Origin: Martelella sp. NC20
Lineage (GTDB): Bacteria > Pseudomonadota > Alphaproteobacteria > Rhizobiales > Rhizobiaceae
Length of the DNA stretch: 64,000 bases
Reading direction: 5' to 3'
Assembly (NCBI RefSeq): GCF_013459645.1
Contig: NZ_CP054861.1
Location: 124,001-188,000 of the forward strand
A model generated the notes under the pieces. The model made no database searches. It saw only the letters and a program-made list of their open reading frames with translations, and was not told where the DNA came from. How positions within the stretch are numbered: the stretch's first letter is position 1; each line of letters begins with the position of its first letter. Below are positions 21,422-61,800 of the stretch, piece by piece. A program made the translations under genes and the position numbers.

Positions 21422-21446
21422 AAAGCTCTGGCCGTGCCAGAGCTTT
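21422..21446 (-). terminator. Intrinsic terminator of the sugar ABC operon
   Basis: AAAGCTCTGGC-CGT-GCCAGAGCTTT is a perfect 11-bp stem with a 3-base loop. On the minus strand it is followed by a run of T (TTTTTTGC). It lies 44 bases past the stop of the leftward binding-protein gene. Confidence 0.8.
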
Positions 21447-21489: not shown

Positions 21490-22764
21490 TTACTTGTTGG
21501 CCATAACCGAAGTGACGTGATCGCGCACCATCGTCATCGCCTCCTGCGGCGAGATCTTGCCGCGCTGCAGTTGATCGAGAACCGGTGCAACGCCCTTCCA
21601 GACATCGTCGGCCGTGTTGTCCGGATAGGCAAACCAGGGCCTGGCCGCATCCATTTCGCTGAAGGCCGTCAGGAAGTTCGGGTTCTCGGCATAGAAGTCT
21701 TTGAGAACCTCCGCCGTCTGCTTGTTTGTCGGCATGTATCCGCTCGCCCTGGAAACATTTGCCTGGGTTTCGCCGCTGGTCATGTATTTCATGAACTCCC
21801 AGGCGGCGGCCTGTTTCTTTTCATCCTGAGCAAGCATCATCAGGGCCGCGCCGCCAGCCGGCAGGCCGCCGTTTTCGGCATCAATCAAGGGGAATTTGAC
21901 AGTGCGCATCGTAAAGCGATCGCCGATCGCCTTGCCGTAGCCGACGATTTCAGATGGAGATTCGACGACCATGCCGACTTTGCCTGCCAGAAACTGCTGG
22001 GTCGCGGGCGTTGGCGTGGCATAGACCGTCATATCGGTCTTGACCGCCATGTCCTGGGTGATGCGCAGAGCTTCCATTCCGGCTGCATTGTCGAAGCCGA
22101 TCCCGGTTGCTTCGGCATTGAGCATGCTGTTTCCGGACGCCATGACGAGCATCTGCCAGAACCAGTCATCGCTCAGTCCGCCAACGGAAAAACTGAGGCC
22201 GATACTGCCGTCACCCAGTTGGTTGACCTTCTGAGCCAGTTCGATCACGCCGTCCCAGGTGGTCGGGAAGTCATCGACGCTGCCGCCGGCCGCCTCGATC
22301 ATTTCCTTGTTTACATAGACAATGGGAAGGGACGCGGTGAACGGCATCGCATACTGCTCGTCCCCGACCCTGGCGAGGGAAAGAATGGCATCGGCATAAT
22401 TCTGCTCGACCCAGGCCTCGCCCTCCTCCTCCATGAACCCGGAGAGGGAAACGTCAAGCCCGCGATCCTCGAGAATGGACGCAAGGCTCGGGACGCCGGA
22501 ATAGGAGGCGAGGTAGACGTCGGGGGCGGAATTGGTCATCAGGCCGCGAATGACATTCTGGTCACCCGCGCTGTAGTTCTCCGCCGGGGCCTGATCCTCG
22601 ATCACCACGCCCGTGTGCGTAGCATTGAAGCTTTCGATCACGCTGCCGATCCACGGCAGTTGCGGATGGTAGAAGGTGAGAGTGACAGGCTCATCGGCCC
22701 AGGCTGGCAAAGCAAGCGACAGCAGGGTGGCCGTCGCGGCCAGAGTAGCTTTCAGTCTACGCAT
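21490..22764 (-). CDS. Sugar ABC transporter solute-binding protein (family 1)
   Basis: 424 residues. The signal peptide is residues 1-23 (ALPAWADE). The rest is a family-1 (UgpB/MalE-like) periplasmic binding protein: VTLTFYHPQLPWIGSVIESF, NVIRGLMTNSAPDVYLASYS, YVNKEMIEAAGG, GKVGMVVESPSEIVGYGK, LPAGGAALMML, EFMKYMTSGETQANVSRASG. It is the last gene of a four-gene leftward operon (ATPase, two permeases, binding protein), which is a less usual order. The ligand is probably a sugar or glycerol-phosphate-type compound, since the transporter faces a phosphodiesterase/beta-glucosidase gene set. Confidence 0.85.
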   Translation of the reverse strand: MRRLKATLAATATLLSLALPAWADEPVTLTFYHPQLPWIGSVIESFNATHTGVVIEDQAPAENYSAGDQNVIRGLMTNSAPDVYLASYSGVPSLASILEDRGLDVSLSGFMEEEGEAWVEQNYADAILSLARVGDEQYAMPFTASLPIVYVNKEMIEAAGGSVDDFPTTWDGVIELAQKVNQLGDGSIGLSFSVGGLSDDWFWQMLVMASGNSMLNAEATGIGFDNAAGMEALRITQDMAVKTDMTVYATPTPATQQFLAGKVGMVVESPSEIVGYGKAIGDRFTMRTVKFPLIDAENGGLPAGGAALMMLAQDEKKQAAAWEFMKYMTSGETQANVSRASGYMPTNKQTAEVLKDFYAENPNFLTAFSEMDAARPWFAYPDNTADDVWKGVAPVLDQLQRGKISPQEAMTMVRDHVTSVMANK

Positions 22765-22813
22765 TGCAGTTCCTTTGGATGGTTGTGTGCGGGTTGCGAG
22801 GAAAACACGGGCC

Positions 22814-22833
22814 CTGCCGGAGCGATCCGGCAG
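22814..22833 (-). other. Intercistronic hairpin before the binding-protein gene
   Basis: CTGCCGGA-GCGA-TCCGGCAG: an 8-bp perfect stem with a GNRA-type tetraloop in the 76-base gap between the permease stop and the binding-protein ATG. It probably stabilises or separates the binding-protein message. Confidence 0.45.
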
Positions 22834-22840
22834 ATCCAGT

Positions 22841-23680
22841 TCACTTGACCCCGGTCATCGTGATGCCCTGGACGAACTTTCGCTGAGCGATAAGGGAAAC
22901 CAAAATGAGCGGAGCGGTGACGAGGGTGGCGCATGCCATCAGGGGACCGAAGCTGTCGCCGCCCCCTCCCTGGCTGCGGAAGAAAAGCAGCCCCAGGGTC
23001 GGAGGGGCCATATCTGCGGACCGGATGGCGATCATCGGCCAGTAAAGGTCATTCCAGTGAAAGGTTACCGAGAAAATCGCGAAGGCTGCGATCGCCGGCA
23101 GCATGGCGGGCATGACGATGCGAAACACGATTTCGATCTCGCTCATGCCGTCTAGACGGGCAGCGAGGAGGATCTCGTCCGGAAAGGACTTGATGAACTG
23201 GTGGAACAGAAAGATCGCGAAACCCGAGGTCAGGTAAGGCACCATCATCGAGAAATAGGTGTCCAGCAGCCCGACCTTTGCCAGGACGATGAAAATCGGC
23301 AACGCCGTCGCCTGTGCCGGCACAGCCAGGCTGAGCAGGACAAGGGCAAAGAGAATCCTGCGGCCCTTGAAGTCATATTTGGCCAGGGCAAAGGCGCAGA
23401 TCACTGTTGTCAGGATCTGGGCAATCAGAATCCCGCCCGTCATGATCAGGCCATTCAGCATGAAACGGAGAAGGGGCGTCTCGAACAGGGCGCGCCCGTA
23501 GTTCTCGGCAATCGAATCCCAGACGGCCGGCGGATTGGAGACGGCGCCGAAAATCGCGCCGGCACTTTTGGAAGACGCCCGCCACATCCAGAAGAAGGGA
23601 TAGACCATCAGCACGGCGGTCAGCATCAGGAAGGCATGAACGGCGACGATCCTGGTATGGCGAAACAAGCGGACAGCCAT
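22841..23680 (-). CDS. Carbohydrate ABC transporter permease (MalG/UgpE-like)
   Basis: 279 residues with six membrane helices. It opens with a short cytoplasmic tail and VHAFLMLTAVLMVYPFFWMW, has the periplasmic segment WDSIAENYGRALFETPLLRF usual for UgpE, and carries the EAA loop EILLAARLDGMSEIEIVFRI. It ends with the family tail AQRKFVQGITMTGVK. Its ATG overlaps the preceding stop by one base (TGATG). It forms a heterodimeric channel with the neighbouring permease. Confidence 0.85.
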   Translation of the reverse strand: MAVRLFRHTRIVAVHAFLMLTAVLMVYPFFWMWRASSKSAGAIFGAVSNPPAVWDSIAENYGRALFETPLLRFMLNGLIMTGGILIAQILTTVICAFALAKYDFKGRRILFALVLLSLAVPAQATALPIFIVLAKVGLLDTYFSMMVPYLTSGFAIFLFHQFIKSFPDEILLAARLDGMSEIEIVFRIVMPAMLPAIAAFAIFSVTFHWNDLYWPMIAIRSADMAPPTLGLLFFRSQGGGGDSFGPLMACATLVTAPLILVSLIAQRKFVQGITMTGVK

Positions 23681-24615
23681 CAGAAATGCGCCTTCCTGTT
23701 GTTCGCCATAACCTGGAAGATGCTGAAAAGGCCGATCAGGGCCAGGTAGATGACCGTAAGGGCGCTGCCATATCCCGCCTTGAGGCCGACAAAGCTGTCC
23801 TGATTGATCTTGTAGAGCAACATCTCGGTTGCGCCGTACGGACCGCCATTGGTCAACACGGCGACGGTATCAAACGCCTGAAAGGCCTGAATGCAGCTGA
23901 TGGTGATCACGACAATGGTTGTCGGCGCAATCAGCGGCCAGATGACGTAGCGGATGCGATCCCAGAAATTATCGATCCCGTCCAGTTGGGCCGCATCCGT
24001 CAATTCCTTTGAAATTGTGGTGAACCCGGCCAGAAACAGGATGAGGTTGAACCCGAGCGAATGCCAGATGCCGATAATGGCAAGCCCGATGAGGGCGAGA
24101 TCGCTATCGGCAAAGAAATCGAACGGCCTCATGCCCAGGGACGTCATCAGCGTCGCCAGCGGGCCGATATTGCCGTTCAGCAGGTAGCTCCAGACAATCG
24201 ACATGGCAGTCAACGTGCTGGTGACCGGCAGGAAGTAGATGATTTCATAAAACCGGCGAGAGCGCGTTCTGTTGTTGAGGAGAGCCGCCAGTATCAGCGC
24301 CAGACCGACCGAGATGGGCACCACAAGCGAGGTATAGATCGCGCTGTTCTTCAGGGCGTTCCAGAAATAGGGGTCGCGGATGAGCCTTTCGTAATTCCCC
24401 AGCCCGACAAGGGACAGTGAAGCGCGCCCCAGCTTGTAGTCGGTCAGGCTGACGATGAAGACGACAATGACCGGCGCGATCACGGTTGCAAAAAGCAACA
24501 GGAAGGCTGGCGCGGAAAAGTAATAGGCATAGGCCTTGTAGCCTCCGCCATCGCTTTTGCCGATCGGTGCGACGGCAGGCGGGGCTTCGCTCGAAACGGA
24601 GAGGGCGTGGGTCAT
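23680..24615 (-). CDS. Carbohydrate ABC transporter permease (MalF/UgpA-like)
   Basis: 311 residues, six membrane helices after a 30-residue cytoplasmic lead. FIVSLTDYKLGRASLSLVGL and NYERLIRDPYFWNALKNSAI are the conserved UgpA/LacF-type periplasmic region. The EAA loop is LTDAAQLDGIDNFWDRIRYV. It is coupled at both ends by TGATG one-base overlaps with the ATPase gene upstream and the second permease downstream. Confidence 0.85.
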   Translation of the reverse strand: MTHALSVSSEAPPAVAPIGKSDGGGYKAYAYYFSAPAFLLLFATVIAPVIVVFIVSLTDYKLGRASLSLVGLGNYERLIRDPYFWNALKNSAIYTSLVVPISVGLALILAALLNNRTRSRRFYEIIYFLPVTSTLTAMSIVWSYLLNGNIGPLATLMTSLGMRPFDFFADSDLALIGLAIIGIWHSLGFNLILFLAGFTTISKELTDAAQLDGIDNFWDRIRYVIWPLIAPTTIVVITISCIQAFQAFDTVAVLTNGGPYGATEMLLYKINQDSFVGLKAGYGSALTVIYLALIGLFSIFQVMANNRKAHF

Positions 24616-25784
24616 CAGTCTGTGCCCATTATCCTGAGAGGCGCCGGCATCAATTGGCCCGCGCTTGAAAACAGGAGGGCATTCTGCGGGAGAATGCGCA
24701 GCGCGACCCTGTCATTGATGCCGCCATCATTGCGCAAGCGTTCGAAGCGTTCGGCGCGCATCTGCATCCGGATCCGCTCGACGCCAAGCGCCGATCCATC
24801 GCAACGCAGCGTGACTTCCGAGCCGGAAAACTCCACATGCGTGAGCGGCAACGTGAAATCCGCTTCGCCGCCCAGGGGGACGGCATCCAGAGATTCCGGG
24901 CGCAGACCGAGGATGTAGTCGCCGTCCGGCGCATCGGATGTGCTCAGATTGAGGCATGTCCGCGCCAACTGGATATCGCCGTCGGCAACCGTCACCGGCA
25001 ATTCGTTGATGGCGACGGAGCCAACAAAGCGAGCGACGGCAAGCTCGGCGGGGCGATTGTAGATGTCCTGCGGTCTTGCACATTGCACGATGCGTCCGGC
25101 CTGCATCACCGCGACCCGACTGGACATCGCCATGGCTTCCGTCTGGTCATGGGTGACATAGAGGAATGTGATGCCGGTGCGCCGATGCAGATCGGAAATT
25201 TCTTCTCGCAATTGAATTCTCAACTTGGCATCGAGGTTCGAAAGCGGCTCATCCATGAGAAAGACCGATGGCTGCCGGACAATGGCGCGCCCAACGGCCA
25301 CGCGTTGTCTCTGCCCCCCGGACAGCTGCGCCGGTTTGCGATCCAGCAGATGCTGAAGGTCGAGCTGCCCCGCCACCCTGGCGACGCTCTGCGCGATCTC
25401 CCGATGCGTCTGGCGGACCTTCCGCGAGAGCAGCCGGCTACCAGGTAGTCTCTGCCGAAAGGACAGGCGGCTCATTTCCAGAGGCATGCCGATATTCTTC
25501 GCGACGCTCATATGCGGATAGAGCGCGTAGGACTGGAACACCATGGCGACGTCGCGCTTCTTTGGGGGCAGCTGCGTGATCTCCTGCGCGCCGATATGGA
25601 TCGAGCCGGAACTCAATTGTTCGAACCCCGCGATCATGCGCAGCAAGGTCGATTTTCCGCATCCCGACGGGCCAAGCAGCGTCAGGAATTCTCCCGGCTG
25701 GATGTCGAGATCAATTCCCTGGAGGATTTCCGTTCCTCCAAAGTGCTTCCTGACATTGGCTATCTTGATCCCGCGACCATTCAT
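24615..25784 (-). CDS. Carbohydrate ABC transporter ATP-binding protein (MalK/UgpC-like)
   Basis: 389 residues. Walker A is GPSGCGKST, the Q-loop FQSYALYPHMSV, the signature LSGGQRQRV, Walker B VFLMDEPLSNLD, then THDQTEAM, the MalK-type H-loop region. A C-terminal TOBE regulatory domain follows (LGLRPESLDAV). Between Q-loop and signature it carries an insertion of about 18 residues (RLSFRQRLPGSRLLSRKVRQ) not usual in UgpC. The start at 25784 has GGAG eight bases upstream; a longer frame from 25859 lacks support. It is the first gene of the operon, divergent from tetR. Confidence 0.85.
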   Translation of the reverse strand: MNGRGIKIANVRKHFGGTEILQGIDLDIQPGEFLTLLGPSGCGKSTLLRMIAGFEQLSSGSIHIGAQEITQLPPKKRDVAMVFQSYALYPHMSVAKNIGMPLEMSRLSFRQRLPGSRLLSRKVRQTHREIAQSVARVAGQLDLQHLLDRKPAQLSGGQRQRVAVGRAIVRQPSVFLMDEPLSNLDAKLRIQLREEISDLHRRTGITFLYVTHDQTEAMAMSSRVAVMQAGRIVQCARPQDIYNRPAELAVARFVGSVAINELPVTVADGDIQLARTCLNLSTSDAPDGDYILGLRPESLDAVPLGGEADFTLPLTHVEFSGSEVTLRCDGSALGVERIRMQMRAERFERLRNDGGINDRVALRILPQNALLFSSAGQLMPAPLRIMGTD

Positions 25785-26218
25785 TGCGTCGCTCCAACTT
25801 GATTTTGCAGATCTCACCGGACTGTGCCGGATCGCTTTTCGTGAGGTCTCTATAGGCACCCAAGTTGACAGATCGATGACAGGGGTATCTCTTTTGAGAA
25901 AAATTTATTAAATGAATTCAAATGGTTTACATTGACAAATAACTATACAGTCACATATACCGAGCCTTGAGAAGCTGAAAAGAACGGGTGAAACGAGTGT
26001 CCCAATGGCTCTTGATCGGGGAATTTGGCGACGCGGCGATCACCCTGTCAGGCAGCGAATGGCCTGCAAGGCGGCGAAGAGGACTGCCGGGTCTGAAGGA
26101 CGACTTTTGAGGCATTTTGCCATGTTGATGGCAGCAAGAATCGCGCGATCAGGCGGAACAGGAAATGACCAAGCCGTTGCGTGGAGCTTGTGTGCGTGGC
26201 CGATGGAAATGAGACAAG
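25785..26218. other. Divergent regulatory region between sugar ABC operon and tetR
   Basis: 434 bases with no credible gene. The section 25895-25965 is strongly AT-rich. On the plus strand TTGACA (25932-25937) is followed at 16-17 bases by ATATAC-like sequence, a plausible promoter toward tetR. TATACAGTCACATATA (25948-25963 approximately) is a near-symmetrical site of a kind TetR proteins often bind. The exact operator is not established. Confidence 0.45.
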
Positions 26219-26902
26219 ATGAAGAATGCCCCCGATATCGCTGATGTGCCTGAAACGGAGACACCGTCTGCTCCGCGCCATCCCCGGCGCCCGGACCGCT
26301 CCCGCAACCGCATTCTGGAGGCGGCAATTCTGGAGTTCTCCGAGAAGGGCTTCGCAGGCGGCAGGGTGGATGAAATCGCCGAGCGCGCCGAAATCGGAAA
26401 GCGCATGCTTTATCACTACTTCGGAAACAAGGAGAAACTGTTCCTGGCGGTCATAGAGAAGGTCTATCTCGATCTCTGGGCGGCAGAGGCCGCGCTTGAG
26501 CTCGATCGGCTGCCGCCACGCGAAGCGCTTGCCGAGCTCGTGACCTTTGTCTGGAACTACTATCTGGACCATCCGGAGTTCATAACGCTGCTGAATGAGG
26601 AAAACCTGCTCAAGGCGCAGAATTTCCGCCATTCCCGGATACTTCGGGAAGGCGCGGAACATTCGCAGGATCTTGTGGAGGAGGTTCTCGCCCGAGGCGT
26701 GGCGGAAGGCGTGTTCCGGCCCGGTATCGATCCGGTGCAGCTAAGCCTGACCATTACTTCTGTTTGCTATTATTATCTGACCAATCACGCCACCAGCTCC
26801 ATCGTCTACGGTCGCCGGCTGATGACCAAGAAGGCGCAAGCCGAGCGGCTGGCCTTCAATGTCGAGTCTATTCTGACCATCGTTCAGGCGGCCCCGCTGT
26901 GA
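26219..26902 (+). CDS. TetR/AcrR-family transcriptional regulator
   Basis: 227 residues. After a 25-residue disordered lead, the HTH spans about 27-75 (NRILEAAILEFSEKGFAGGR, VDEIAERAEIGKRMLYHYFG). The rest is an all-helical ligand/dimerisation domain with a TetR_C-type pattern (NEENLLKAQNFRHS, RGVAEGVFRPGIDPVQLSLT). It is divergent from the sugar ABC operon and upstream of the phosphoesterase/glucosidase genes, so it is the likely repressor of both arms. A hairpin follows its stop. Confidence 0.82.
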   Translation: MKNAPDIADVPETETPSAPRHPRRPDRSRNRILEAAILEFSEKGFAGGRVDEIAERAEIGKRMLYHYFGNKEKLFLAVIEKVYLDLWAAEAALELDRLPPREALAELVTFVWNYYLDHPEFITLLNEENLLKAQNFRHSRILREGAEHSQDLVEEVLARGVAEGVFRPGIDPVQLSLTITSVCYYYLTNHATSSIVYGRRLMTKKAQAERLAFNVESILTIVQAAPL

Positions 26903-26922
26903 GCCGCCTTGCATTTCTTCTG

Positions 26923-26960
26923 GAGCATTTCCAGTGATCCCGATTTCACCGGAAATGCTC
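26923..26960 (+). terminator. Hairpin after tetR, resembling rhizobial palindromic repeats
   Basis: GAGCATTTCC (26923-26932) and GGAAATGCTC (26951-26960) form a 10-bp stem with an 18-base loop holding further partial pairing (CCAGTGA...TTCACCGG). The GAGCATTTCC half-site is also the end motif of palindromic repeats common in Rhizobiales. It could attenuate read-through into the phosphoesterase gene 36 bases further on. Confidence 0.5.
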
Positions 26961-26995
26961 GAGGGTAGACCTTCCTGCTTGAGGCAAGAATTTTC

Positions 26996-27832
26996 ATGAA
27001 AATTGCTGTTTTGGCCGACGCGCATATCGGCACTGAAAAACCTGTCTTCGTTCCCAATTGGGAGAAGGTTGTAAGCCACGTGAATGAGCGATCCGACATC
27101 GATCTCATTGTGGTGCTTGGCGATCTCACCCTTGATGGCGCCAAGCTGGACGCTGACCGGGCCTTCGGGCGCGATGCCATCGCGGCGCTGCGGGCGCCGG
27201 TTCTTGTTCTGCCGGGCAATCATGACGTTGGCGACATCGCCCGCGACACGCTGCAACCGGCGGATAATGACCGGCTTGCCCAATGGGAAAAGCATTTCGG
27301 CCCCTGGCACTGGCATTCTGACGCGGTTGACGGGTGGCGATTGCTGGGCGTCAACAGCCAGATCCTCGCCACAGGCCTCCCGGAGGAAAGCGCGCAGTGG
27401 TCATCACTGGAACAGGCCGCCGAGGGCCGCGGCGAGAGAAAACTCGCGCTCTTTTCCCACATGCCGCTTTTTCTGGAACACTGGGACGAGCCGGATCGCC
27501 CCGCATGGGCCATTCCCGCGCCGGCGCGGCAACGCCTGCGGCTTCTCATTGAGGAACACGCCATCAAGGCCGTCATTGTCGGTCACATCCACAGAGTTCT
27601 GGATCGGCGCTGCGAGGGCGGACCGGCCTTTATCTGGGCGGCGGCATCAAGTTTCCTTACCCACGACGAGTCCATGCCGCCACAACATGGAAAAGAACTG
27701 CTCGGCTACACGGTTCTCGACTTCCGGCAGGATGAGGTGGTGTCCGAGTTCGTGGCCGTCGAGGCGCTGATGAAAAGCTACATCGAAGACTATAAGGGCT
27801 CGATCTATCGCTCGCCGGCGAAAGACGCCTGA
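26996..27832 (+). CDS. Calcineurin-like metallophosphoesterase (CpdA-type)
   Basis: 278 residues with every metal-binding block of the calcineurin family: LADAHIG (Asp8, His10), VVLGDLTLDG, LPGNHDVGD, FSHMPLF and VGHIHRV. The spacing resembles cyclic-nucleotide or phosphodiester phosphodiesterases of the CpdA/YfcE group. It acts in the cytoplasm, as there is no signal peptide. Lying between a TetR regulator and a PHP phosphoesterase in a glucoside-catabolism cluster, it may hydrolyse a phosphodiester within the imported substrate rather than cAMP. Confidence 0.85.
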   Translation: MKIAVLADAHIGTEKPVFVPNWEKVVSHVNERSDIDLIVVLGDLTLDGAKLDADRAFGRDAIAALRAPVLVLPGNHDVGDIARDTLQPADNDRLAQWEKHFGPWHWHSDAVDGWRLLGVNSQILATGLPEESAQWSSLEQAAEGRGERKLALFSHMPLFLEHWDEPDRPAWAIPAPARQRLRLLIEEHAIKAVIVGHIHRVLDRRCEGGPAFIWAAASSFLTHDESMPPQHGKELLGYTVLDFRQDEVVSEFVAVEALMKSYIEDYKGSIYRSPAKDA

Positions 27833-27879
27833 TCGTATTTGTGTTTGAGTAATTTGACGCGCCGCAGGGGAAATGGGCA

Positions 27880-28758
27880 ATGGTCTGGTTCAGCTATCAC
27901 GGAGGGCATTCGGGCGAGTTCTGTGATCACGCTTCCTCCTCTCTGCAGCAGGTTGTTCAGGCCGCCATTGACGAAGGCTTCACCCATTACGGCCTCAGCG
28001 AACATTGCCCGCGCTACAGAGAACAGGATCTCTATCCCGGCGAGGAAAGGCTCGGCATTGAAGGACTGATCAGGGCGTTTGAGGGATATGTGATCCGCGC
28101 GTTCGCATTGCGCGAAGAATATGCCCGGCATATCGAGTTGCTGGTCGGCTTCGAGACCGAGAAATTGCCGCCGGAGAACTGGCTCGAAGCGATGCTGTCG
28201 CTGAAAAGCGCCCATCCCTTCGATTATGTCGTGGGAAGCGTCCATGACATCAACGGTCGATGGGTAGACTATTCCCCGCAGGAGACAAGTCGGCTGGCCG
28301 AAGATCTGGGCGGCACGGAAGCGCTGCAACTGGCCTATTTTCGATCCGTGACCGACATGGTCGAACAGTTGCGCCCCGACATCGTCGCCCATCTCGATCT
28401 GGTGCGCAAATTCGAACCGCCGGGCTTTTCCTTCTCCGACCGGGTCGCCAAGGAGATCGAACGGCTTCTGGATGCGATCCAGGCATATGGTGGCGTCATA
28501 GACGTGAACTGCGCGGCATTCCGCAATGGCTATGGTCCAGTCTATCCTCTGCCGCAAATTCTGTCGCGCGCCAGACAAATGGGGATTCCGGCCACCTTCG
28601 GAGATGACAGTCACGGCGTGGACACTGTTGGCGTCGGGCTCGAACAGTCCCGGCAAGCCATTTGCGCCGCCGGCTACAGCCAGATCTCCTATCTCACCCG
28701 TGATCATGGCTGGCAAAGCGCCGATATCGCCGAAGTCAGGCCCAGGCGCTCCGTTTGA
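27880..28758 (+). CDS. PHP-domain phosphoesterase, histidinol-phosphatase-like
   Basis: 292 residues. The metal-binding motifs of the PHP superfamily occur in order: YHGGHSGEFC (the first His pair), GLSEHCP, VGFETE, YVVGSVHDI, IVAHLDL and FGDDSHG. This is the pattern of HisK-type histidinol phosphatases. No other his gene is near, and the gene sits between a metallophosphoesterase and a beta-glucosidase. A role in removing phosphate from a sugar or polyol phosphate is therefore more likely than histidine synthesis. Cytoplasmic; 47 bases after the previous gene. Confidence 0.82.
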   Translation: MVWFSYHGGHSGEFCDHASSSLQQVVQAAIDEGFTHYGLSEHCPRYREQDLYPGEERLGIEGLIRAFEGYVIRAFALREEYARHIELLVGFETEKLPPENWLEAMLSLKSAHPFDYVVGSVHDINGRWVDYSPQETSRLAEDLGGTEALQLAYFRSVTDMVEQLRPDIVAHLDLVRKFEPPGFSFSDRVAKEIERLLDAIQAYGGVIDVNCAAFRNGYGPVYPLPQILSRARQMGIPATFGDDSHGVDTVGVGLEQSRQAICAAGYSQISYLTRDHGWQSADIAEVRPRRSV

Positions 28759-28792
28759 GACAGGCCATTCAAAGCAACACAAGAAACAGAAA

Positions 28793-29317
28793 ATGACAGA
28801 CCAACAAAATCTGGCCATCCGTCGGGCAACCGCCGACGATATCGGCTTTATCATGACAGTCGAACGGCAGCCCGGTTATGCCGAACGCGTCGGCGCCTAT
28901 GATGCGGAGGCTCATGCCAAGAAGCTGGGCACGACTGGATGCCGTTATTACATTGCGGTGTTCGGCGACAAGCCGGTTGGCTTTGCCGTTCTGCGGCAGA
29001 ATGACGACGGCATGGGCGTGGTCAATCTGAACCGGATCGCCGTCCATCCCGAGGATCGCGGGATTGGAACCGAGTTTGTCCGATGCATCGCCGGAGAGGT
29101 TTTTGCAGATCTCGACAATGACAGACTATGGCTCGATGTCCTGCCTTCCAACCTGAGTGCCAGGCATCTCTATTCCAAGGTGGGATTCGTCGAAGAGGGC
29201 CTGATGCGCAGCGCACTGCGCTATCCGGATGGCCGGAGGATGGATCTCATCCTGATGTCCCTGCTTCGAACCGACTGGGAAGCCGCGCCCATCGAAAGGC
29301 AACACGATGCCGCCTGA
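28793..29317 (+). CDS. GNAT-family N-acetyltransferase
   Basis: 174 residues. The acetyl-CoA-binding motif A is VNLNRIAVHPEDRGIGTEFV, with the pyrophosphate loop EDRGIGT. Motif B follows as LDVLPSNLSARHLYSKVGFV, ending VEEGLMRSA. It begins 34 bases after the PHP gene and precedes the beta-glucosidase gene. It could acetylate an amino-sugar or detoxify an intermediate, but GNAT proteins are too varied to assign a substrate. Confidence 0.8.
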   Translation: MTDQQNLAIRRATADDIGFIMTVERQPGYAERVGAYDAEAHAKKLGTTGCRYYIAVFGDKPVGFAVLRQNDDGMGVVNLNRIAVHPEDRGIGTEFVRCIAGEVFADLDNDRLWLDVLPSNLSARHLYSKVGFVEEGLMRSALRYPDGRRMDLILMSLLRTDWEAAPIERQHDAA

Positions 29318-29409
29318 AGACGGCCTTTCCGGCAGCGCTCGTTGATCTCTGCAAACAACGATCCTGAACCGCTCGCCCAGCGCCCAACCCGCAAGACCAG
29401 GAACCGAAC

Positions 29410-31767
29410 ATGCCTTCTTCGCCCTCTATTGACCTCATGGAAGATAAAAGAGCCCCGGAGCTGCTTGCCAGCATGACCGCAGCCGAAAAGGCCGCGTTCC
29501 TGTCTGGCAACGGCATGTGGAAGTCCGCAAGGCTCCAGCGGCTGGGCATCGATCCGGTGGTCATGACGGACGGCACTTATGGGTTGAGGTATGATATTGC
29601 GCAGATTGACGGTGAACTTGCGCCGGGAGAAGAGCTGGATGCCTTTCTGAACACCGTCAATCAGCGCGCCAGCGAGATCGAGGACGCGGCGGGCGAAATC
29701 AAACCGGCAACCTGTTTCCCGAATGGATCTGCCTTGGGAAACAGTTGGGACACGGCGTTGATGGAGGAACTCGGGATCCTGCTTGGAAGGGAATGCCGGT
29801 CTTTGGGCGTCGATCTTCTGCTGGGACCGGGGATCAACATCCGTCGTACGCCGCTTGCCGGCCGCGCCTATGAATATTACTCGGAAGATCCGTTTCTGGC
29901 CGGCAAGCTTTCGGCGTCCGTCATCCGTGGAATACAGTCCCAGGGCGTTGGCGCTTCGCTGAAGCATTTTGCCTGTTACAATTGCGAAAACGAACGCATG
30001 ACCATGGACAGCATCGTCGATGAGAGGGCGTTGCGGGAAATCTATCTCAAGGGGTTCGAAATCGCTGTTCGCGAGAGCCGTCCCTGGACAGTGATGTCGT
30101 CATACAATCTCCTCAACGGAGTCGAAGCCTCCCAGAACCATTGGCTGCTGACGGAGGTTCTCCGGGATGAATGGGGCTTTGACGGGCTTGTCGTCTCCGA
30201 CTGGAACGCGATCAAGGATCGACCGGCATCCCTGATGGCCGGTTGCGACCTCGACATGCCTCAAAGTCCGCGCCGCATTGCCCGGCTGGAACAGGCGCTC
30301 GAGGATGGCGAAATTCCCGAGGAAGCCGCAGACAAGGCCTGTGCCCGTATGTTCGACCTATTGGGCCGGATCGAACGCGGCCGCGCGCATTCCGTCGAGC
30401 GATGTGATCACGCGGCGCATCATCAACGCGCACGCGCCATGGCCGCCGCCTCGATCGTTCTCGCCAGAAATGAGGGAAACCTCCTTCCCCTGCGTGACGT
30501 GCAATCCGTTCTGGTGGTGGGGCGCGATGCGTTGACCCCGGTGATTCAGGGATCTGGTTGCGCCACGACCTTGCCCACGATGATCGATGCCCCGCTGGAG
30601 GAATTGAGAAAATCGCTGGGTGAGAAGGTAAAGATCAGCCATCGGCCCGATTTGGACGCAGACACGCTGGAATGTGCTGCAGCGGCGGATGCGGTCATTG
30701 CCTTCGTGTCTACGGAAGGTCTTGGCGATGGAGAGGGGCGGGACCGCGTCACGCTCGGTCTCGGTCCCGGCCAGGATAACATGATCGAGGCGCTGGCCGC
30801 CGTCAGCGACAGGCTTGTCGTTGTCCTGAGCTGTCCAGACGCTGTCGAAATGCCCTGGATCGACAAGATCGCAGCTCTTCTGATCTGCTTTTACCCCGGC
30901 CAGGCCTTGGGAGGCGCCGTGGCCGACCTGCTTTCGGGAGCAGTCACGCCCTCCGGCAAGCTCTCCGTCACCTTCCCGCAAAGGCTTGAGGACGTGCCGG
31001 GACATCTGTCCTATCCGGGCGAACTCGATAAGTACTATTACTCGGAAGGCATTCATGTCGGCTACAGGGGGTATCTAAAAGGGAAAGTAAGACCCCTGTT
31101 TCCATTCGGCCACGGCTTAAGCTACACGCAATTCCGATACGATCAGCCTGCGCTTTCCAGTGATGGCATTTCCATCGACGGAACTATTTCCGTATCGTTC
31201 ACCCTGACCAATATTGGCAATGTTGCGGGCGCGGAAATATCCCAGATCTATCTGGACGCAAAAGGAAAACAGGTCGGTCGAGCCGTGCGTGAACTCAAGG
31301 GATTTGCAAAAACATTTCTGCACCCGAACGAGTCCCGACAGGTCACTGTTTGCATCGAAGGAAGAGACTTGGCCGTCTGGCATCCCGAACGAGGCAAATG
31401 GGTGCTGGAGGATGAGAATGCCCGTCTGTTGATCGGCACATCCAGCGAAAACATCAAGGCGAGCATCGACTTGCGTCTCATGCCGTCGGATCTGCCCTGG
31501 AGACAGGTCGGGCCGCATACCAGGCCCGAGTTTATCCTGCCAAACCCTTACGCGATGAAGATCCTGCAAACCTTCCTTTCGCAGAGGCTGGGCATTACCG
31601 AAGTCGAGGCGGGGGCAGCTCTTAGGCGATGCAACGACTCGATATCCGGACTATTTGCCTCTCTGGAACGATATCTTCATATCTCGATAAGCGATGAAGA
31701 GGTGAGCGACCTCTTTTCGCAAATCAACGCCGCAATGAAATGCGCCGAAACCGGATTGGCATCCTAG
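29410..31767 (+). CDS. Glycoside hydrolase family 3 beta-glucosidase
   Basis: 785 residues without signal peptide, so cytoplasmic. The N-terminal GH3 barrel is at about 15-310: TDGTYGLRYD, FPNGSALGNSWD, GPGINIRRTPLAGRAYEYYS, LKHFACYNCE, and the nucleophile Asp in GLVVSDWNA. The C-terminal GH3 domain is at about 350-600: VVVGRDAL, VIAFVSTEGLGDGEGRDR, FYPGQALGGAVADLL, FPFGHGLSYTQF. A fibronectin-III-like domain is at about 620-715. A tail of some 60 residues has no match I recognise. The start has no strong ribosome site. The TAG stop is part of the CTAG at the IS end. It likely releases glucose from an imported beta-glucoside or oligosaccharide. Confidence 0.9.
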   Translation: MPSSPSIDLMEDKRAPELLASMTAAEKAAFLSGNGMWKSARLQRLGIDPVVMTDGTYGLRYDIAQIDGELAPGEELDAFLNTVNQRASEIEDAAGEIKPATCFPNGSALGNSWDTALMEELGILLGRECRSLGVDLLLGPGINIRRTPLAGRAYEYYSEDPFLAGKLSASVIRGIQSQGVGASLKHFACYNCENERMTMDSIVDERALREIYLKGFEIAVRESRPWTVMSSYNLLNGVEASQNHWLLTEVLRDEWGFDGLVVSDWNAIKDRPASLMAGCDLDMPQSPRRIARLEQALEDGEIPEEAADKACARMFDLLGRIERGRAHSVERCDHAAHHQRARAMAAASIVLARNEGNLLPLRDVQSVLVVGRDALTPVIQGSGCATTLPTMIDAPLEELRKSLGEKVKISHRPDLDADTLECAAAADAVIAFVSTEGLGDGEGRDRVTLGLGPGQDNMIEALAAVSDRLVVVLSCPDAVEMPWIDKIAALLICFYPGQALGGAVADLLSGAVTPSGKLSVTFPQRLEDVPGHLSYPGELDKYYYSEGIHVGYRGYLKGKVRPLFPFGHGLSYTQFRYDQPALSSDGISIDGTISVSFTLTNIGNVAGAEISQIYLDAKGKQVGRAVRELKGFAKTFLHPNESRQVTVCIEGRDLAVWHPERGKWVLEDENARLLIGTSSENIKASIDLRLMPSDLPWRQVGPHTRPEFILPNPYAMKILQTFLSQRLGITEVEAGAALRRCNDSISGLFASLERYLHISISDEEVSDLFSQINAAMKCAETGLAS

Positions 31768-32192
31768 GCCGTAGACTCGTAACGCTTTAACCATAGTCGC
31801 ACAGAGAAGAGCTTGATTGCCGCGAGATAGTTGTCGGCGCGTTTGTCGTAACGCGTTGCAATTCCACGCGCTTCTTTGATGCGGTTGAAGAACCGCTCGA
31901 CGAGGTTTCGATAGCGATAGAGGAACGAACTGAAAGCGAAGGTCTTTTTTCGGTTTCGCTTCGCCGGGATGTTGGCGAATGCCTTCGCCTGAGTTGCCGT
32001 GGCGCGGATGGCGTTGGTGTCATAGCCACGATCTGCCAAAAGCGTCGTTCCGGCATGAAGTCTGGTGAGCAGATCTTCGGCGTAGCGACAATCAGCATGC
32101 TGACCTTCTGAGAGGCGAAGATCAATCGGCAGCCCATCGGCATCGACGAGAGCGTGGATCTTCGTTGTCAGGCCGCCTCTGGAACGTCCCAT
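31764..32192 (-). CDS. IS5-family transposase, second frame (orfB)
   Basis: 142 residues carrying the second Asp (LLADRGYDTNAIR) and the Glu region (YRNLVERFFNRIKEARGIAT, RYDKRADNYLAAIKLF) of the DDE catalytic triad. It is normally made as a fusion with orfA through ribosomal slippage. Its TAG stop lies in the CTAG shared with the GH3 gene's stop on the other strand. Confidence 0.85.
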   Translation of the reverse strand: MGRSRGGLTTKIHALVDADGLPIDLRLSEGQHADCRYAEDLLTRLHAGTTLLADRGYDTNAIRATATQAKAFANIPAKRNRKKTFAFSSFLYRYRNLVERFFNRIKEARGIATRYDKRADNYLAAIKLFSVRLWLKRYESTA

Positions 32193-32533
32193 GCTTCGAT
32201 TGGCGCCCCCTTTTTACCGGTGGCGCCATGCTGATGCACGCGAACACAAGACGAGTCGATCATCTGAATATCGCCGTCGAAGGCGGAAGAAATCGCCGTG
32301 AGAAGGTGATCCCAGACACCAGCCCGCCGCCAGCGGACAAAGCGATTATAACAGGTGGTGTGAGGGCCATAGCGTTCCGGAACATCGGCCCATGGGCTGC
32401 CGGTACGAAAGCGCCAGAGTATGCCGTTGATCACACGGCGGTCATCGACCCGCGGTACGCCGCGGCTGTTATTGGGCAGAAGCGGCTCGATCACCGCCCA
32501 CTCGAAATCCGTCAGGTCAAAACGTCGGCGCAT
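32168..32533 (-). CDS. IS5-family transposase, first frame (orfA)
   Basis: 121 residues from the ATG at 32533, which has AAAGGAG upstream. It contains the N-terminal DUF4096-type region (RRRFDLTDFEWAVIEPLLPN, GILWRFRTGSPWADVPERYG) and the first catalytic Asp (MIDSSCVRVHQHG). A five-A, five-G slippery run (plus strand 32206-32215) lies just before the overlap with orfB. A minus-one slip there joins GATGK to the GGANRSMGRSRGG frame, giving the full DDE transposase. Confidence 0.85.
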   Translation of the reverse strand: MRRRFDLTDFEWAVIEPLLPNNSRGVPRVDDRRVINGILWRFRTGSPWADVPERYGPHTTCYNRFVRWRRAGVWDHLLTAISSAFDGDIQMIDSSCVRVHQHGATGKKGAPIEAWDVPEAA

Positions 32534-32562
32534 CAATGGTCTCCTTTCCAGAAACCATTGAA

Positions 32563-32772
32563 TCAAGTCATCGCACCCATGTGAACCCCATTTATGGGTT
32601 TACGGCCTAGGGTGCCGAGTGCCAAGGTCAGCAGGGTCACCGTGCAAATGACGACCTTGACGCCTTCCGGCGTCGAAACCGGCATGATACCGGCCGGCGC
32701 CAGCGAGAACAGCAGGAAGAACGCCAGCACGATACCGCCGATCAGATCGCGGTTTCGGCGCAACTCAGCCAT
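32563..32772 (-). pseudogene. DUF2946-like small membrane protein, 3' end replaced by the IS
   Basis: The first 55 residues have a membrane helix (IGGIVLAFFLLFSLAPAGIM) followed by PVSTPEGVKVVICTV. This matches the N-terminal pattern of DUF2946 proteins (PAGxMP...VxxC), which accompany copper-handling genes. From about 32606 the frame is IS sequence (GRKPINGVHMGAMT) and the cysteine/histidine-rich second half of the family is absent. It overlaps the SCO gene's stop by eight bases, so it was the last gene of the copper operon before the insertion. Confidence 0.55.
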
Positions 32773-55896: not shown

Positions 55897-58800
55897 TTAT
55901 CCAAGAAGCAGGACATGGTCCGCTCCGTCGATGGGCGCGCGCACGGGCCCCGCTGATGCCGCGACGACATTGCCGTCGAGAACGGCATTCCAGGCGCCCG
56001 AGCCCGGTTGCCGGGCATTGTCGACGCGGATGCTGAACCGGGTTTTATCGACCGTCACGACGGCCTCGAAGTCCGGCCATTCGGCGGGAATGGATGGATC
56101 GACAATCAGGAATTTGCCCTCGCGCCGGATCCCGAGAATACCTTCGATCCCCGCGCGATACATCCAGCCGCCGGAGCCCGTGTACCATGTCCAGCCGCCC
56201 CTGCCGACATGCGGCGCGACGGAATAGACATCGGCGGCGACGACATAGGGTTCGACCTTGTAGCGCTCGGTATCCGCGGCGGTCAGGGCATGGTTGATGG
56301 GGTTCAGGAGTTCGAACAGCGCGTGCGCCTTGCCGCCGGCGCCGGATCTGGCAAAGGCCATGATCGCCCACATGGCCGCATGGCTGTACTGCCCGCCATT
56401 CTCGCGCAGGCCCGGAGGATAGCCCTTGATATAGCCGGGATCGCGTGGCCCGTCATCGAAGGGCGGGGTGAACAGCAGCGCCAGCCCGTCGTCGCGGCGG
56501 ATGAGATGCCGCTCGAGCGAAGCCATGGCGGTGGCGGCGCGTGTCGGATCCCCGGCGCCGGACAGGACGGACCAGGATTGCGCGATGGAATCAATCCGGC
56601 ATTCCTGATTGTCGCTGGCGCCGAGCCATGTGCCGTCGTCGAAGGTTGCACGGGCATACCATTCGCCATCCCAGGCATGGGTTTCGATGGCCGCGCGCAG
56701 CGTGGCGGCATGGGCCCGCCAGCGCTGGCCACGTTGCCGGTCGCGGTGTTCGGCGAGCGGAGCACAAAGATCGATGGCGGCCAGCAGCAGCCAGCCGAGC
56801 CAGACGCTCTCACCCTTGCCGCCCTCGCCGACGCGGTTCATGCCGTCGTTCCAGTCGCCGGTGCCCATCAGCGGCAGGCCGTGCTCTCCGGTCAACGCGA
56901 TGCACTGGTCGAGGCCGCGGGCCATGTGTTCTAAAAGCGAGGCCGTCTCGGCAGCGATCGTCGGATGGAAGAAGGCATCGTGCTGGCCGGGCTCCAGTGG
57001 CGGGCCCTCAAGGAAGGGCACGGCAACATCGAGCACCGCCTCGTCACCGGTTGTCCTGACATAGGTCGCGGCCGCGAATGCGAGCCAGACCCGGTCATCG
57101 GAGATGCGGGTTCTGACGCCCTGGCCGGACTGTGGCAGCCACCAATGCTGGACGTCGCCCTCGACGAACTGCCGGGAGGCGGCGCGCAGGAGGTGATGCC
57201 GGGTCTCTTCGGGCCGGGCAAGGGTCAATGCCATGCCATCCTGAAGCTGGTCGCGGAAGCCATAGGCTCCGCTCGCCTGATAGAAGGCGGAGCGCGCCCG
57301 GATACGGCAGGCGACCGTCTGGTAGAGAAGCCAGCCGTTCAGCATGATATCCATCGCCCGGTCCGGCGTCCTGACCTGTACGGTCTGCAAAAGGTCGCTC
57401 CAGTGGTCGGTGACGTCCTGCAGGACCGTGTCAAGATCGATCTCGCGATAGCGCGACAGCAGGCTGCGGGCCTCATCCGCAGAGCCGCTCTCTCCAAGGA
57501 ACGCAACGATTTCTATCGTTTCGCCGGGGCTTAAGGCAATCGTCCGCTGCAGGGCGGCGCAGGGATCGAGGCCCGCACCGACGGCGCCTGACAGGGGTAC
57601 GCCAAGAATGAGCGCCCGCGGCGCGGCGGCATTGCCGCGGTGTCCGAGAAAATCGCTGCGATTCGCCGTCCATGACGTCTGTTCACCACCAAGGTCGGCA
57701 AAAGCGATGCGACCGGGAAAGCCCGCGCTCCATGGGTTGCGCGCGAACAGCGCGCCGGTCTCCGGATCGATGCCGGTGATCAGGAAAGGCGCGGTTGCGC
57801 TGCGCGAGCCGCCGAGCACAAGCGCCGTGTAGCTCGTCACTGTCAGCCGGCGTGGCCGGGCGGAGGTGTTTTTGAGCGTCAGGCGCGAGATCTTGATCGG
57901 ATCGGCCAGCGGTACATATTGAAGGAGCGCGGCAGAGATCCCGTTTTCCTCGTGTTCGAACCGGCTGTAGCCGAAGCCGTGGCGGGCGATATAGGCGCCT
58001 TTGCGCCGGATCGGCTGCGCGGTCGCGCTGAAAAGTTCGCCGGTGTCCTCGTCGCGGATATAGAGCGTTTCGCCGGCGGGATCGGTGACAGGATCGTTCG
58101 ACCACGGCGTCAGTTGATTTTCACGGCTGTTTTCCGCCCATGTATAGCCGTTTCCTTCCGCTGACACCTGAAAGCCGAAACCGGAATTGGCGATCACATT
58201 GATCCAGGGCGCGGGGGTGACGGCGCCCGCTTCGAGAATGGTCACATATTCCTGGCCATTCTTGTCGAAACCGCCGAGGCCGTTGAAGAATTCGAGGGCG
58301 GGACGTTGATGAGGCGCCGCATCCGGTGCCGGTGCCCGCTTCGGTGCTGACGGCAACGGATGCGCCGGAGGTAATGCCGGCAGGTCCGGATATTGCTCCG
58401 CGATCGGGCCGCGCCGGGCATTCAGTTTCACGCGGGCGACCGAATGAAGCTGCGCGTGCGCCTCGGCGCTCATCAGGTCCGCCCGAAGCACGAAGACCGA
58501 GCCCTGTGCCAGTTCGATCCCGGGGCGCGGCCGCGACTGGCTGCTGCGATGCGCCGCCTCGATCGCGGTCTGCAGGTCCTGGGTGTAGGAGGAGGCACGC
58601 TCGTTGATGATGACCAGATCGACAGCAAGGCTCTTCATCCGCCAGTATTCGTGAGCCCGCAGCAATTGATGGACCTGTGCCATGTCGTGCGGGTCGTCAA
58701 TGCTGAGCAGCACGATGGGAAAATCACCGGAAATGCCCAGATGCCAGAGGCCCGATTGCGGCCCGGCGCCCCGCGCGATTTCGGCTCCGGATGCGCGGTA

Positions 58801-61800
58801 ACGCGGGTCCGCATAGATGATCGGCGCGGCCAGCCGCTGAAAATCAGCGGCCTCGCCGGATCTGACATCGATGTGGCGAAGCTGAACCTGCGCCTGGGTC
58901 CATGCCAGTGTCTTCGCGCGTTCGAAGGCGCTGCGGTCGAGATGCCTGTCGATCAGGTCGACGAGTTCGGTCCGGGACGATGCGACGACCGTCCAGTAGG
59001 CGATGCGGGCAACCTTGCCGGGAGCGATCGTGACGCGTTGGCGGATCGCGAAAACCGGATCAAGCACCGTGCCGACCGTGTTTGAAAGCGGCGTGTCGGT
59101 GTCCATGGCCGCGGCGGTGGCGGCCGTGCGGCCGCGCCCGATAAACCGGGCCCTGTCGGTTTCAAATTGCGGATCGGCAGCGATCTTTCCTTCGACCACG
59201 GCGAAATGAGCGGCCCAGATGCCGGCTTCCTCCGGCGTGCGCGGGCGACGGGTGGCGATCAGCGCGCCGTATTCGGCGGAATATTCGGTCTGGACGAACA
59301 TCTTGGAAAATGCCGGATGGGCGGTGTCCGCGGAAACCGGGGCGAGAACCAGTTCGGCATAGGAGGTGATCTCGATCTCGCGCGGGCGCCTGCTGCCGTT
59401 GGAGATGGAAATGCGACGGACCTCACAATCGTCCTCGCCGGAAACCATGACATCCATTGTCGTGGTCAGCCCGCCCTGAACAGACAGGAAATGTGCACGA
59501 TCCTCATCGAAGACGACATCGCCATGTTCGCTGCCCTCGGTCAGAGGCCGGGCGCCGGCGGACCAGACGGCGCCATTCTGGACATCGCGTATGAAGATGG
59601 GCGATCCGTCGCCATCACGCGTGACGTCTTCGTGCCAGCGGGTGATCGCAAGGCCGCGCCAGCGGCTGTAGCCCGCCCCGGTGGCCGTCAGCATCACCGC
59701 ATAGCGGCCGTTCGAAAGCAGATGCGTCACCGGGGGACCGGCGGCAGACGTGGCAATCCGGCGCGACGTATCGGGACCAAGCGAGGATCTGGCGGGTGAG
59801 AGCGGTGCTTCATCGACCCTTTTATGATCATTCGTCACAGTGCGCGGAATGCGCTCCTGCAGCAGCAGTTCGCAGGCCCGGATCATCGGTTCGCGGTGGA
59901 AACGCGTGCGCATGATGCCGTCCTGGAGCGTGTTGACGATCGCGACAATCGTCATGCCCTGGTGATGGGCCATGCTCGTGCGCACGATCGCGACCTTGTC
60001 CTTTTCGGGAAGCCGGGTGCTTGTGAAGTCCAGCGCCTCGTAGAAACCATAGGAGCCAAGCGCGCCGAGTGCGGCAAGCCGGGTGTAGTTGGCGCAGGCG
60101 CCGGCCGGATCGATCATCGTGGCGAGACCGGTCGCATAGGGCGCGATGACGGCATTTTCGGAAAGGCCGCGTTTCAGGCCGAGGCCGGGAACGCCGAAGT
60201 TCGAATACTGGTAGGTCAGTTCCGTGTCACGGGCATTGTAGGCGGATTCGGAAATGCCCCATGGCGTGCCGAGCGTTTCCGCATAGGCTTGCTGGCGTCT
60301 GACCACCAGCCGGTTGGTCTGCGCGAGCAGGCTGCCCTGGGGTGCGCGCATGATCAGGGAGGGCATCAGATATTCGAACATGGAGCCCGACCACGAGACC
60401 AGCGCCGAAGCGCCCGAAAGCGGCGTCGCCGGGCGTCCGAGCAGGAACCAGTGCCGGGTTTCGATATCGCCCTTGGCGATGGCAAACAGGCTTGCGAGCC
60501 GCGCTTCGGAGGCGAGAAGATCGTAACAGTTCGCATCGAGATTGTTGTCGGCGAGCGCGTAGCCGATCGACAGGAGCTTTCGCTCGGGATCGAGAAGGAA
60601 AGCGAAATCCATCGCCATCGCCATCGCCCGCGCTTCGGAGGCAATCGCCGTCAGGCGAAGGTCCAGGCCGTTATCCCCCAGACGGTCGCGCGTATCCTCG
60701 GCAATCTGTTTCTTCAGGGCCGCGAGCCAGAAGATGAGGTCGGAACATGCAGCCTCCCGGCTTATCGGAACCATCTCCCGCGCAATGGCGGCGGCCTTGT
60801 CGGCAAGCCGCATCAGCATGGGTTCAGCCGTATCAAGGGACAGCGAGCCGTTCAGCCGGGCCTCGATGTCGTCGAGCACGGGCGTGAGGTGCCCGTCACC
60901 CTGTTGACCGCTTCCGGCAATTGCGTCAAATGCCTGCCGGGCGAGGGTCAGGCTGTCGTTCATGCCTGCCCGGACATCCGGCACGTCGTCTGCCTCCGCC
61001 CACGCCTCGCAGGCATTGGCGAGGGCGATCAGGTGCCCGGCGAGATTGCCGCTGTCGACAGACGAGACATAGGCGGGATCGAGGACGCGCATGTCATCTG
61101 TCGCATACCAGTTGAAAAAATGGCCTCTGTGCTTTGAGAGTGCCGTCATCGTCTTCAGCGTGGCCTCAAGCCTTTCGACGGTCTCGGCCCTGCCGGCCCA
61201 GCCGAAATCGCGAGCCGCCACGGCGGAGAGGAGATAGAGCCCGATATTGGTCGGAGATGTCCTCTCGGCGATGACGGGCTTGGGGGTCTCCTGAAAGTTG
61301 TCGGGCGGCAGCATGTTGCTTTCGGGCGTCACGAAGGTCTCGAAGAAACGCCAGGTGCGGCGGGCGATCAGCCGCAGCTCGTCTGCCTCCTGATCAGAGA
61401 TGGCGGGGCCGGCCCCTTCGGCCGGCGGCCGGCTGACCCAGAGGGCAATCGCGGGCGCCAGGAGCCATAGAAGCGCGAACGGTAGAACGAGCAGCAAGGA
61501 CGAAGGTGTCAACAGACTTGCCGCTACGGCGATGGCGAGGCCAATCAAAGTGCCTGGCGCCATGCGACGATAGAAGCCGGCGGCATCCAGACGCGGGCTC
61601 CCCTGCGACTGGGCGGAGGTGGTCCATTCGAGAAGGTGGCGGCGGGTCCGGTAGAGCCGTATCAGCGTTCTCGCGATGGCATCCGTCATCCGCCATGCCC
61701 GATCCGGCAGGAAGGCGAGATCAAGACATGTTCTGAGCGCCGCAAGGCGCAGATCCGCGCCGAGCGCGGCAACATGGCCGCGCACATGAATGCCGCTGTT

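Follow-up and report, generated by a model that had tools for sequence, protein, structure and literature searches.

Rhizobia and agrobacteria carry many importers without known ligands, and a locus of Martelella sp. NC20 raises the question of what one such importer takes up and what becomes of its cargo. We analyzed a 64,000-nt window of the contig NZ_CP054861.1, whose numbering is used throughout, in which nine intact open reading frames at 21490..31767 form two divergent transcripts. On the minus strand lie the genes of an ATP-binding cassette (ABC) importer: a UgpB-like substrate-binding protein (SBP; 21490..22764, matching the SBP_bac_1/8 families), two permeases assigned by family match as UgpE-like (22841..23680) and UgpA-like (23680..24615), and an ATPase (24615..25859 with a GTG start, or ..25784 with an ATG start) for which UgpC is the best NCBIfam model. 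On the plus strand follow a TetR regulator (26219..26902, with TetR_N and TetR_C_29 domains), a calcineurin-type (class III) metallophosphoesterase (MPE; 26996..27832), a PHP phosphatase of the HisJ fold (27880..28758), a GNAT acetyltransferase assigned by family match (28793..29317), and a GH3 glycosidase (29410..31767). The initial annotation had placed the same nine families here, and the open frames and family matches agree with it; the gene boundaries are corrected at the ATPase, which probably starts at 25859 (GTG) or 25784 (ATG), and at the GNAT gene, which starts at 28793. We consider it probable that eight of these genes, encoding the TetR regulator, the four-gene importer, the MPE, the PHP phosphatase, and the GNAT, constitute a catabolic system that is controlled by TetR and acts on a phosphodiester, with the GH3 gene as an accessory.

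The gene set is conserved well beyond this strain, recurring in several bacteria from soil or associated with plants. A search with a profile built from 44 MPEs covered a collection with one genome per species (84,980 species), and the best 80 of 360 relatives, in 79 loci (L039-L117), were kept. The near set comprises 16 species-genome loci (L039-L054) with an MPE identity of at least 48%, two of which, L040 and L053, belong to one soil metagenome-assembled genome (MAG). The whole importer is found in 12 of the 16 loci, TetR in 14, PHP in 14, GNAT in 10, and GH3 in a single one. The same 12 loci unite the four importer genes with MPE, PHP, and TetR, and 10 of them also contain GNAT. For eight of the nine genes the arrangement thus exceeds what chance would give; the synteny that the initial annotation had called for across the whole set holds for these eight and does not extend to the ninth, GH3. 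All eight core genes are carried on plasmids in Allorhizobium ampelinum S4 (pAtS4e), Agrobacterium leguminum AT13 (where the GNAT annotation is split into two short pieces), and Rhizobium johnstonii TP60, and further carriers include Agrobacterium vitis, A. arsenijevicii, Rhizobium lusitanum, R. tropici, R. rhizogenes, and Pseudorhizobium tarimense. Oryzibacter has the importer, TetR, MPE, and PHP, with neither GNAT nor GH3 beside them, and, of the whole set, R. tumorigenes has only the MPE. Clustering of open reading frames across the loci, a procedure that admits wrong-frame ORFs, yielded no further recurrent neighbor that could be named, and our literature searches, judged by the records they listed, turned up no description of this gene set.

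The distribution of the PHP gene is sporadic. Besides the window genome, one of 150 genomes of the same family gives a match, and a weak one (E 1.2e-5); in the order, 4 of 396 other genomes match; and among 398 genomes drawn from the phylum, a match at E 1e-40 or better is seen in the window genome only. The window PHP is nearer to a metagenome protein (87% identity), to Oryzibacter (85%), and to the soil MAG (84%) than to the Rhizobium and Agrobacterium proteins (about 70%), which suggests that the set may have reached this genome horizontally. No PHP relative was confirmed among viral contigs, and phage records hold distant PHP proteins only, at 24-33% identity.

A shared regulatory site accompanies the genes. 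The intergenic regions between importer and TetR gene, aligned from 11 loci, are poorly conserved (mean 42%) except for one block, GTRACYNNNNNGTTATTT, an imperfect inverted repeat AAGTAAC..GTTATTT from which we derived the pattern GTRACY-N5-GTTATTT. In the divergent promoter region of the window this operator-like site occupies 25937..25954 on the minus strand and is the sole exact copy both in the window and in the whole 6.1-Mb genome. Of the 134 loci scanned, 20 have an exact site, always one copy each: the window (L003), 17 PHP-bearing loci (L033-L035, L039-L048, L051-L054), and the short loci L121 and L122. Seven of the 17 (L033, L034, L035, L044, L051, L052, and L053) stood outside the set that defined the pattern, and in all 17 the site lies on the importer strand. 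No exact site occurs in the three MPE loci devoid of PHP (L036, L049, and L050) or in the 65 distant-clade MPE loci (L037, L038, and L055-L117); in 51 of these 68 negative loci the sequence reaches more than 5.5 kb to either side of the MPE gene, the others being shorter. Two short PHP loci, L118 and L119, end before the position of the site. The TetR protein, which is conserved with the system, may well bind here. The diesterase-type and phosphatase-type enzymes that had been proposed travel together, along with one regulator and one operator-like site.

The SBP bears on the nature of the ligand. The ligand phosphate of Phaeobacter UgpB is held by Tyr64, Tyr342, Ser143, and Ser266, and these residues are reported to be conserved in glycerophosphocholine and dinucleotide binders and not in glucose binders (PMC12718374). 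Assuming that the chain numbering of 9lff equals the published numbering plus 20, they map by phmmer and MAFFT to Y64, S145, S269, and Y343 of the window SBP; alignment column 342 is occupied by Gly, and the conserved, invariant Tyr is read in the next column (Y343). The complete Tyr-Ser-Ser-Tyr site is present in all 16 near SBPs, window included, and in four of four UgpB proteins (three annotated, that of E. coli named by similarity), and the sole sugar-binding control in the alignment (L131) has none of the four residues. Tyr64 and Ser145 also recur in all 34 far-clade SBPs, and the last Tyr in 33 of them; the identity or length filter removed L078 and L098 from this alignment, both of them loci with an SBP match. 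The residues that read the glycerol moiety are another matter: Gly303 is kept and Trp191 may correspond to W201, Glu88 is replaced by Tyr in 16 of 16 near SBPs, Trp188, one of the two clamp tryptophans, is Val in the five near SBPs shown, and Arg393 has no Arg partner among the near SBPs shown in the MAFFT alignment. A phosphate site that is kept, together with the lack of Glu88 and Arg393, argues that a phosphate group is very likely part of the ligand, as had been suggested for this importer, and that the remainder of the molecule is probably unlike glycerol 3-phosphate (G3P).

These residues also bear on the possibility that the locus is a Ugp variant scavenging glycerophosphodiesters (glycerophosphoethanolamine, glycerophosphocholine, or glycerophosphoinositol), in which a GpdQ-like enzyme replaces UgpQ, a GDPD-type enzyme. 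The importer was initially called Ugp-like, and so it is by resemblance of its subunits to UgpB, UgpA, UgpE, and UgpC; none of them reaches the corresponding NCBIfam cut-off (63.7 bits against 411, 106.6 against 335, 124.9 against 297, and 366.6 against 432, respectively), and a nearer UgpB, at 361.9 bits (cut-off 411), is encoded elsewhere in the genome. With Glu88 and Arg393 lacking counterparts as well, a plain Ugp system is disfavored. The locus further differs from Ugp by its calcineurin-type enzyme and by the addition of PHP, GNAT, and TetR, of which PHP and GNAT would not evidently be needed if the product were G3P. We regard glycerophosphodiester scavenging as unlikely, the resemblance of the importer to Ugp and of the MPE to GpdQ notwithstanding.

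The two phosphoesterases fit the preferred role as a phosphodiester system. Class III phosphodiesterases are recognized by the metal motifs D-x-H, GD, GNH[D/E], H, and GHxH, and the corresponding eight residues of the MPE (D8, H10, D43, N75, H76, H155, H197, and H199) are found in 85 of 85 aligned sequences. Searched against PDB chains, the MPE profile matched only the 2dxl/2zo9 set (also 2dxn, 2zoa, and 3d03), at E 1.2e-5 and over profile positions 3-204 of 277. We take 2dxl/2zo9/3d03, which bear the PDB name "Phosphohydrolase", to be GpdQ of Enterobacter aerogenes, a distant member of the same calcineurin-type family that shares all metal-site residues. GpdQ is credited with a broad phosphodiester range and with monoesterase activity (PMC5460133). 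The PHP protein scores 184.6 bits with the HisJ family model TIGR01856 (cut-off 90.2), and its predicted structure (pLDDT 93.5) has HisJ 2yxo as best PDB match, with TM scores of 0.78/0.86 at 24% identity. It represents a subfamily of its own, in which the first motif is HxxH (H7-G/S-G-H10) instead of HxH in all 45 members aligned; H7, G9, H10, and H17 are invariant in these 45, taken from 120 listed of 782 found, and the remaining length aligns to HisJ/HisK chains in a profile search. Many further members of the subfamily exist, mostly metagenomic. Metagenomes also contain relatives of the PHP at 55-59% identity.

The same matches could be read as salvage of cyclic nucleotides or nucleotides, or as a histidinol-phosphatase serving histidine biosynthesis. 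A class III phosphodiesterase-like MPE, a PHP protein above the HisJ family cut-off, and a dinucleotide binder among the kin of UgpB speak for such roles. The PHP protein falls below the HisJ equivalog model NF005996 (107.3 bits against a cut-off of 133), sits in an import cluster tied to the importer and TetR, and is sporadic in the family and order; two HisN-type histidinol-phosphatase genes scoring over their cut-off lie elsewhere in the genome, which disfavors the histidine role. We hold both roles to be very improbable.

Brought together, these data allow a scheme for the phosphodiester system. A CUT1-type importer related to UgpBAEC would take up an intact phosphorylated molecule, its SBP gripping the phosphate in the manner of UgpB and reading a different remainder. 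In the cytoplasm, the metal-dependent MPE would cleave the diester, and the PHP enzyme would strip the phosphate from the resulting monoester. The GNAT, for which no model reached its cut-off, might acetylate an amine-bearing product, for use or detoxification; this is the weakest step. TetR would occupy the single operator between the divergent transcripts and be released by the ligand or a product, a step suggested by the conserved site and its linkage to the genes. The GH3 enzyme, at the end of the enzyme operon, could split a glycosyl product further. As a logic, the sequence of import, diester cut, and phosphate removal is well supported by the synteny, the operator-like site, the phosphate site of the SBP, and the metal site of the MPE.

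Pairwise distances of MPE, PHP, and GNAT correlate with one another (r 0.90-0.95, n 14-18), as do those of SBP, TetR, and ATPase (r 0.95-0.96, n 16), and the values between the two blocks range from 0.49 to 0.83; none of 2000 permutations reached any of these values.

Several observations weigh against the proposed system. The distance correlations, calculated with no species-tree control, reflect shared history and not function. When one mismatch is allowed, the operator pattern has four sites in the genome, as many as the reversed control pattern, so that only the exact match singles the site out; the short PHP locus L120 has its site at the same place with one mismatch. The phosphate site is not uniform outside the near set: Thr replaces Ser269 in all 34 far-clade SBPs, the SBP of L070, where the frame differs, is devoid of the last Tyr, and the SBPs of three importers with no MPE (L132, L133, and L134) keep part of the site only. 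With the modeled SBP (pLDDT 89.9), Foldseek ranks sugar binders level with UgpB; this comparison does not separate sugar from phosphate ligands and would neither help nor harm the phosphate assignment. The MPE is distant from every characterized enzyme, the CpdA and SpdA models matching below their cut-offs, so that an activity on cyclic nucleotides or monoesters is possible. Another PHP enzyme is described as a diesterase (PMC5460133). Since PHP enzymes can be diesterases, the order of the MPE and PHP steps is a guess, and the two enzymes might divide the work differently. PHP is absent from all 63 loci of the distant clade. Lastly, L051 and L052 combine the same MPE, PHP, TetR, and operator-like site with a different importer.

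The swapped importers lend some weight to an organophosphonate or aminoalkyl-phosphate route, in which MPE and PHP would cleave an amine-bearing phosphonate or phosphate ester and GNAT would acetylate it. Not only does the MPE-PHP-TetR-operator unit of L051 adjoin another importer; the MPE alone does so in L036, L049, and L050. In the importer model scans, which covered L051, L050, and L036 (L052 lying outside them), the best-scoring models are those of 2-aminoethylphosphonate PhnS for the three SBPs and PhnT2 for the L051 ATPase, and one L050 permease matches PhnV only. HisJ-type enzymes have an amino-alcohol phosphate as substrate, and a GNAT requires an amine. All these matches are far below the curated cut-offs, though, and among the other permeases of these importers three match sulfate or molybdate models best, and one has no match. 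In L033-L036, the loci searched for them, the annotation shows neither a C-P lyase nor a phosphonatase gene. We consider this route, too, an unlikely account of the locus.

More distant relatives can be set beside the proposed phosphodiester system. A complete set of four Ugp-like importer genes lies no more than 6 kb from the MPE gene in 33 of 63 distant-clade loci. A related importer adjoins a calcineurin-type gene on a Rhizobium leguminosarum plasmid, a more distant Ugp-like importer stands beside a type I phosphodiesterase gene in L134 (S. meliloti pMl1), and the Mesorhizobium AR10 importer locus contains a partial GDPD match (residues 5-71 of 225) near the SBP gene; neither a GDPD nor a type I phosphodiesterase gene is found beside the importer of M. 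huakuii. The variety of phosphodiesterase families next to related importers speaks for a phosphodiester ligand, as we infer from these few cases. Both the distant-clade pairings of this importer type with an MPE and the two loci with a GDPD-family or type I phosphodiesterase neighbor would also suit glycerophosphodiester scavenging. A near copy of the distant-clade system is present on S. meliloti LMB1; among the best 30 of 123 plasmid records, none is a named, studied locus.

The remaining gene, GH3, bears on the question of a glycosidic substrate. Its product is complete, with N, C, and Fn3-like domains and the nucleophile Asp motif (SDW 263-265, with GEGRDR at 441-446), shows no signal peptide on inspection by eye, and has 7ms2 as nearest solved relative; among NCBIfam models, that of an alpha-L-arabinopyranosidase scores best without reaching its cut-off, and a glucoside, a xyloside, or an arabinopyranoside could be the substrate. 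The initial annotation had read the whole nine-gene set as a system for phosphorylated or phosphodiester-linked beta-glucosides, such as pieces of phosphoglycerol-glucans, with release of glucose by GH3 as the final step. The GH3 gene indeed follows GNAT by 92 bases on the same strand, with no plus-strand terminator-like site between them and, in the window scan, no operator-like site of its own; the same gene order, GH3 included, recurs in L040 of the soil MAG and is inferred for one further locus, and a cyclic-glucan-synthase-like gene lies in the window. Against this, GH3 is missing from 15 of the 16 near loci, and neither GNAT nor GH3 adjoins the PHP gene of Oryzibacter, a relative about as close as L040. 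Among the best 120 of 7913 matches, the closest GH3 proteins outside the window genome have 86% and 78% identity, all others being at most 63%, and GH3 accompanies the system in three lineages in all, one of them only probable. Two of the next relatives (58-63%), the 58-59% proteins of the Rhizobium plasmid loci L149 and L150, are the two whose loci were read, and they sit in another shared gene set with LysR, RidA, DUF1028, an ArgE-type deacetylase, another ABC importer, and a nucleoside hydrolase. Phosphoglycerol-glucans are disfavored by the loss of the Glu and Arg glycerol readers of UgpB and by most relatives having no glucosidase in the set. We therefore reject the beta-glucoside reading for the core and judge it quite unlikely for the nine genes as a whole: of the initial order of events, import, diester cleavage, and phosphate removal stand as a logic, and glucose release as a core step does not. 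GH3 seems to have joined the enzyme operon recently in this lineage, and a role in beta-glucoside use would be, at most, local to one sub-lineage. A 555-aa piece identical to GH3 is present in another, probably near-identical assembly, where the GH3 frame is cut short.

The eight-gene system invites comparison with the acc operon of pTiC58, which comprises a regulator, an ABC importer for an intact sugar phosphodiester, the phosphodiesterase AccF, and the putative phosphatase AccG (PMC4526662). The logic of importer, phosphodiesterase, and phosphatase is common to both. In the pTiC58 record, where acc names are lacking and were assigned by gene order, the annotated products are a DeoR/GlpR regulator, oligopeptide-type ABC genes, a GDPD, and an inositol-monophosphatase family member, whereas the window has a TetR, a CUT1/Ugp-like importer, a calcineurin-type MPE, and a PHP; by annotation no family is common to the two. 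An agrocinopine-like logic carried out by unrelated enzymes, as first suspected, is what these annotations bear out, and the set appears, from sequence, to work like acc without being a member of it, analogous and not homologous. Xanthosan use in Xanthomonas (XanT and XanP) is likewise reported to couple import of a sugar phosphodiester with cleavage by a dedicated phosphodiesterase (PMC12807533); it employs other protein families, namely a TonB-dependent transporter and a 2H phosphoesterase. More tentatively, and with considerable doubt, the system might have arisen independently as a parallel to agrocinopine catabolism: a mobile route of agrobacteria, rhizobia, and their relatives, often located on plasmids, for an as yet undescribed amine-bearing phosphodiester from plants or microbes, in which Ugp-like or PhnS-like importers feed one conserved MPE-PHP pair under one operator, with lineage-specific finishing enzymes such as GH3. 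If the ligand is indeed a plant or microbial phosphodiester, the set would parallel agrocinopine and xanthosan use with proteins of other families. Together, the SBP phosphate site, the enzyme pair, and the operator-like site point to the class of molecule to be sought, and the operator-like site offers a ready reporter for ligand screening.

The borders of the cluster are marked on both sides. A terminator-like hairpin of 11 pairs followed by a T run, found by pattern match 3' of the SBP gene (21422..21446, minus strand), is the probable end of the importer operon. At the other side, an IS4/IS5-type transposase in two overlapping frames (31764..32566, minus strand) abuts the GH3 stop codon; it is the edge of the cluster and no part of the system. 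Among the importers not accompanied by an MPE, those of L132 and L133 (Mesorhizobium plasmids) have their Ugp-like genes near aminotransferases, L132 also contains genes for methyltransferases, a CDP-alcohol phosphatidyltransferase, and a phosphocholine cytidylyltransferase, and in L134 the neighbor is the type I phosphodiesterase gene; these gene groups are possibly make-and-use sets for a phosphodiester. Finally, 24 kb from the cluster, a 2660-aa frame (55897-63879, minus strand) combines GH94 supersandwich, GH94 catalytic, and glucoamylase-like domains and is the cyclic-beta-glucan-synthase-like gene, of NdvB type.

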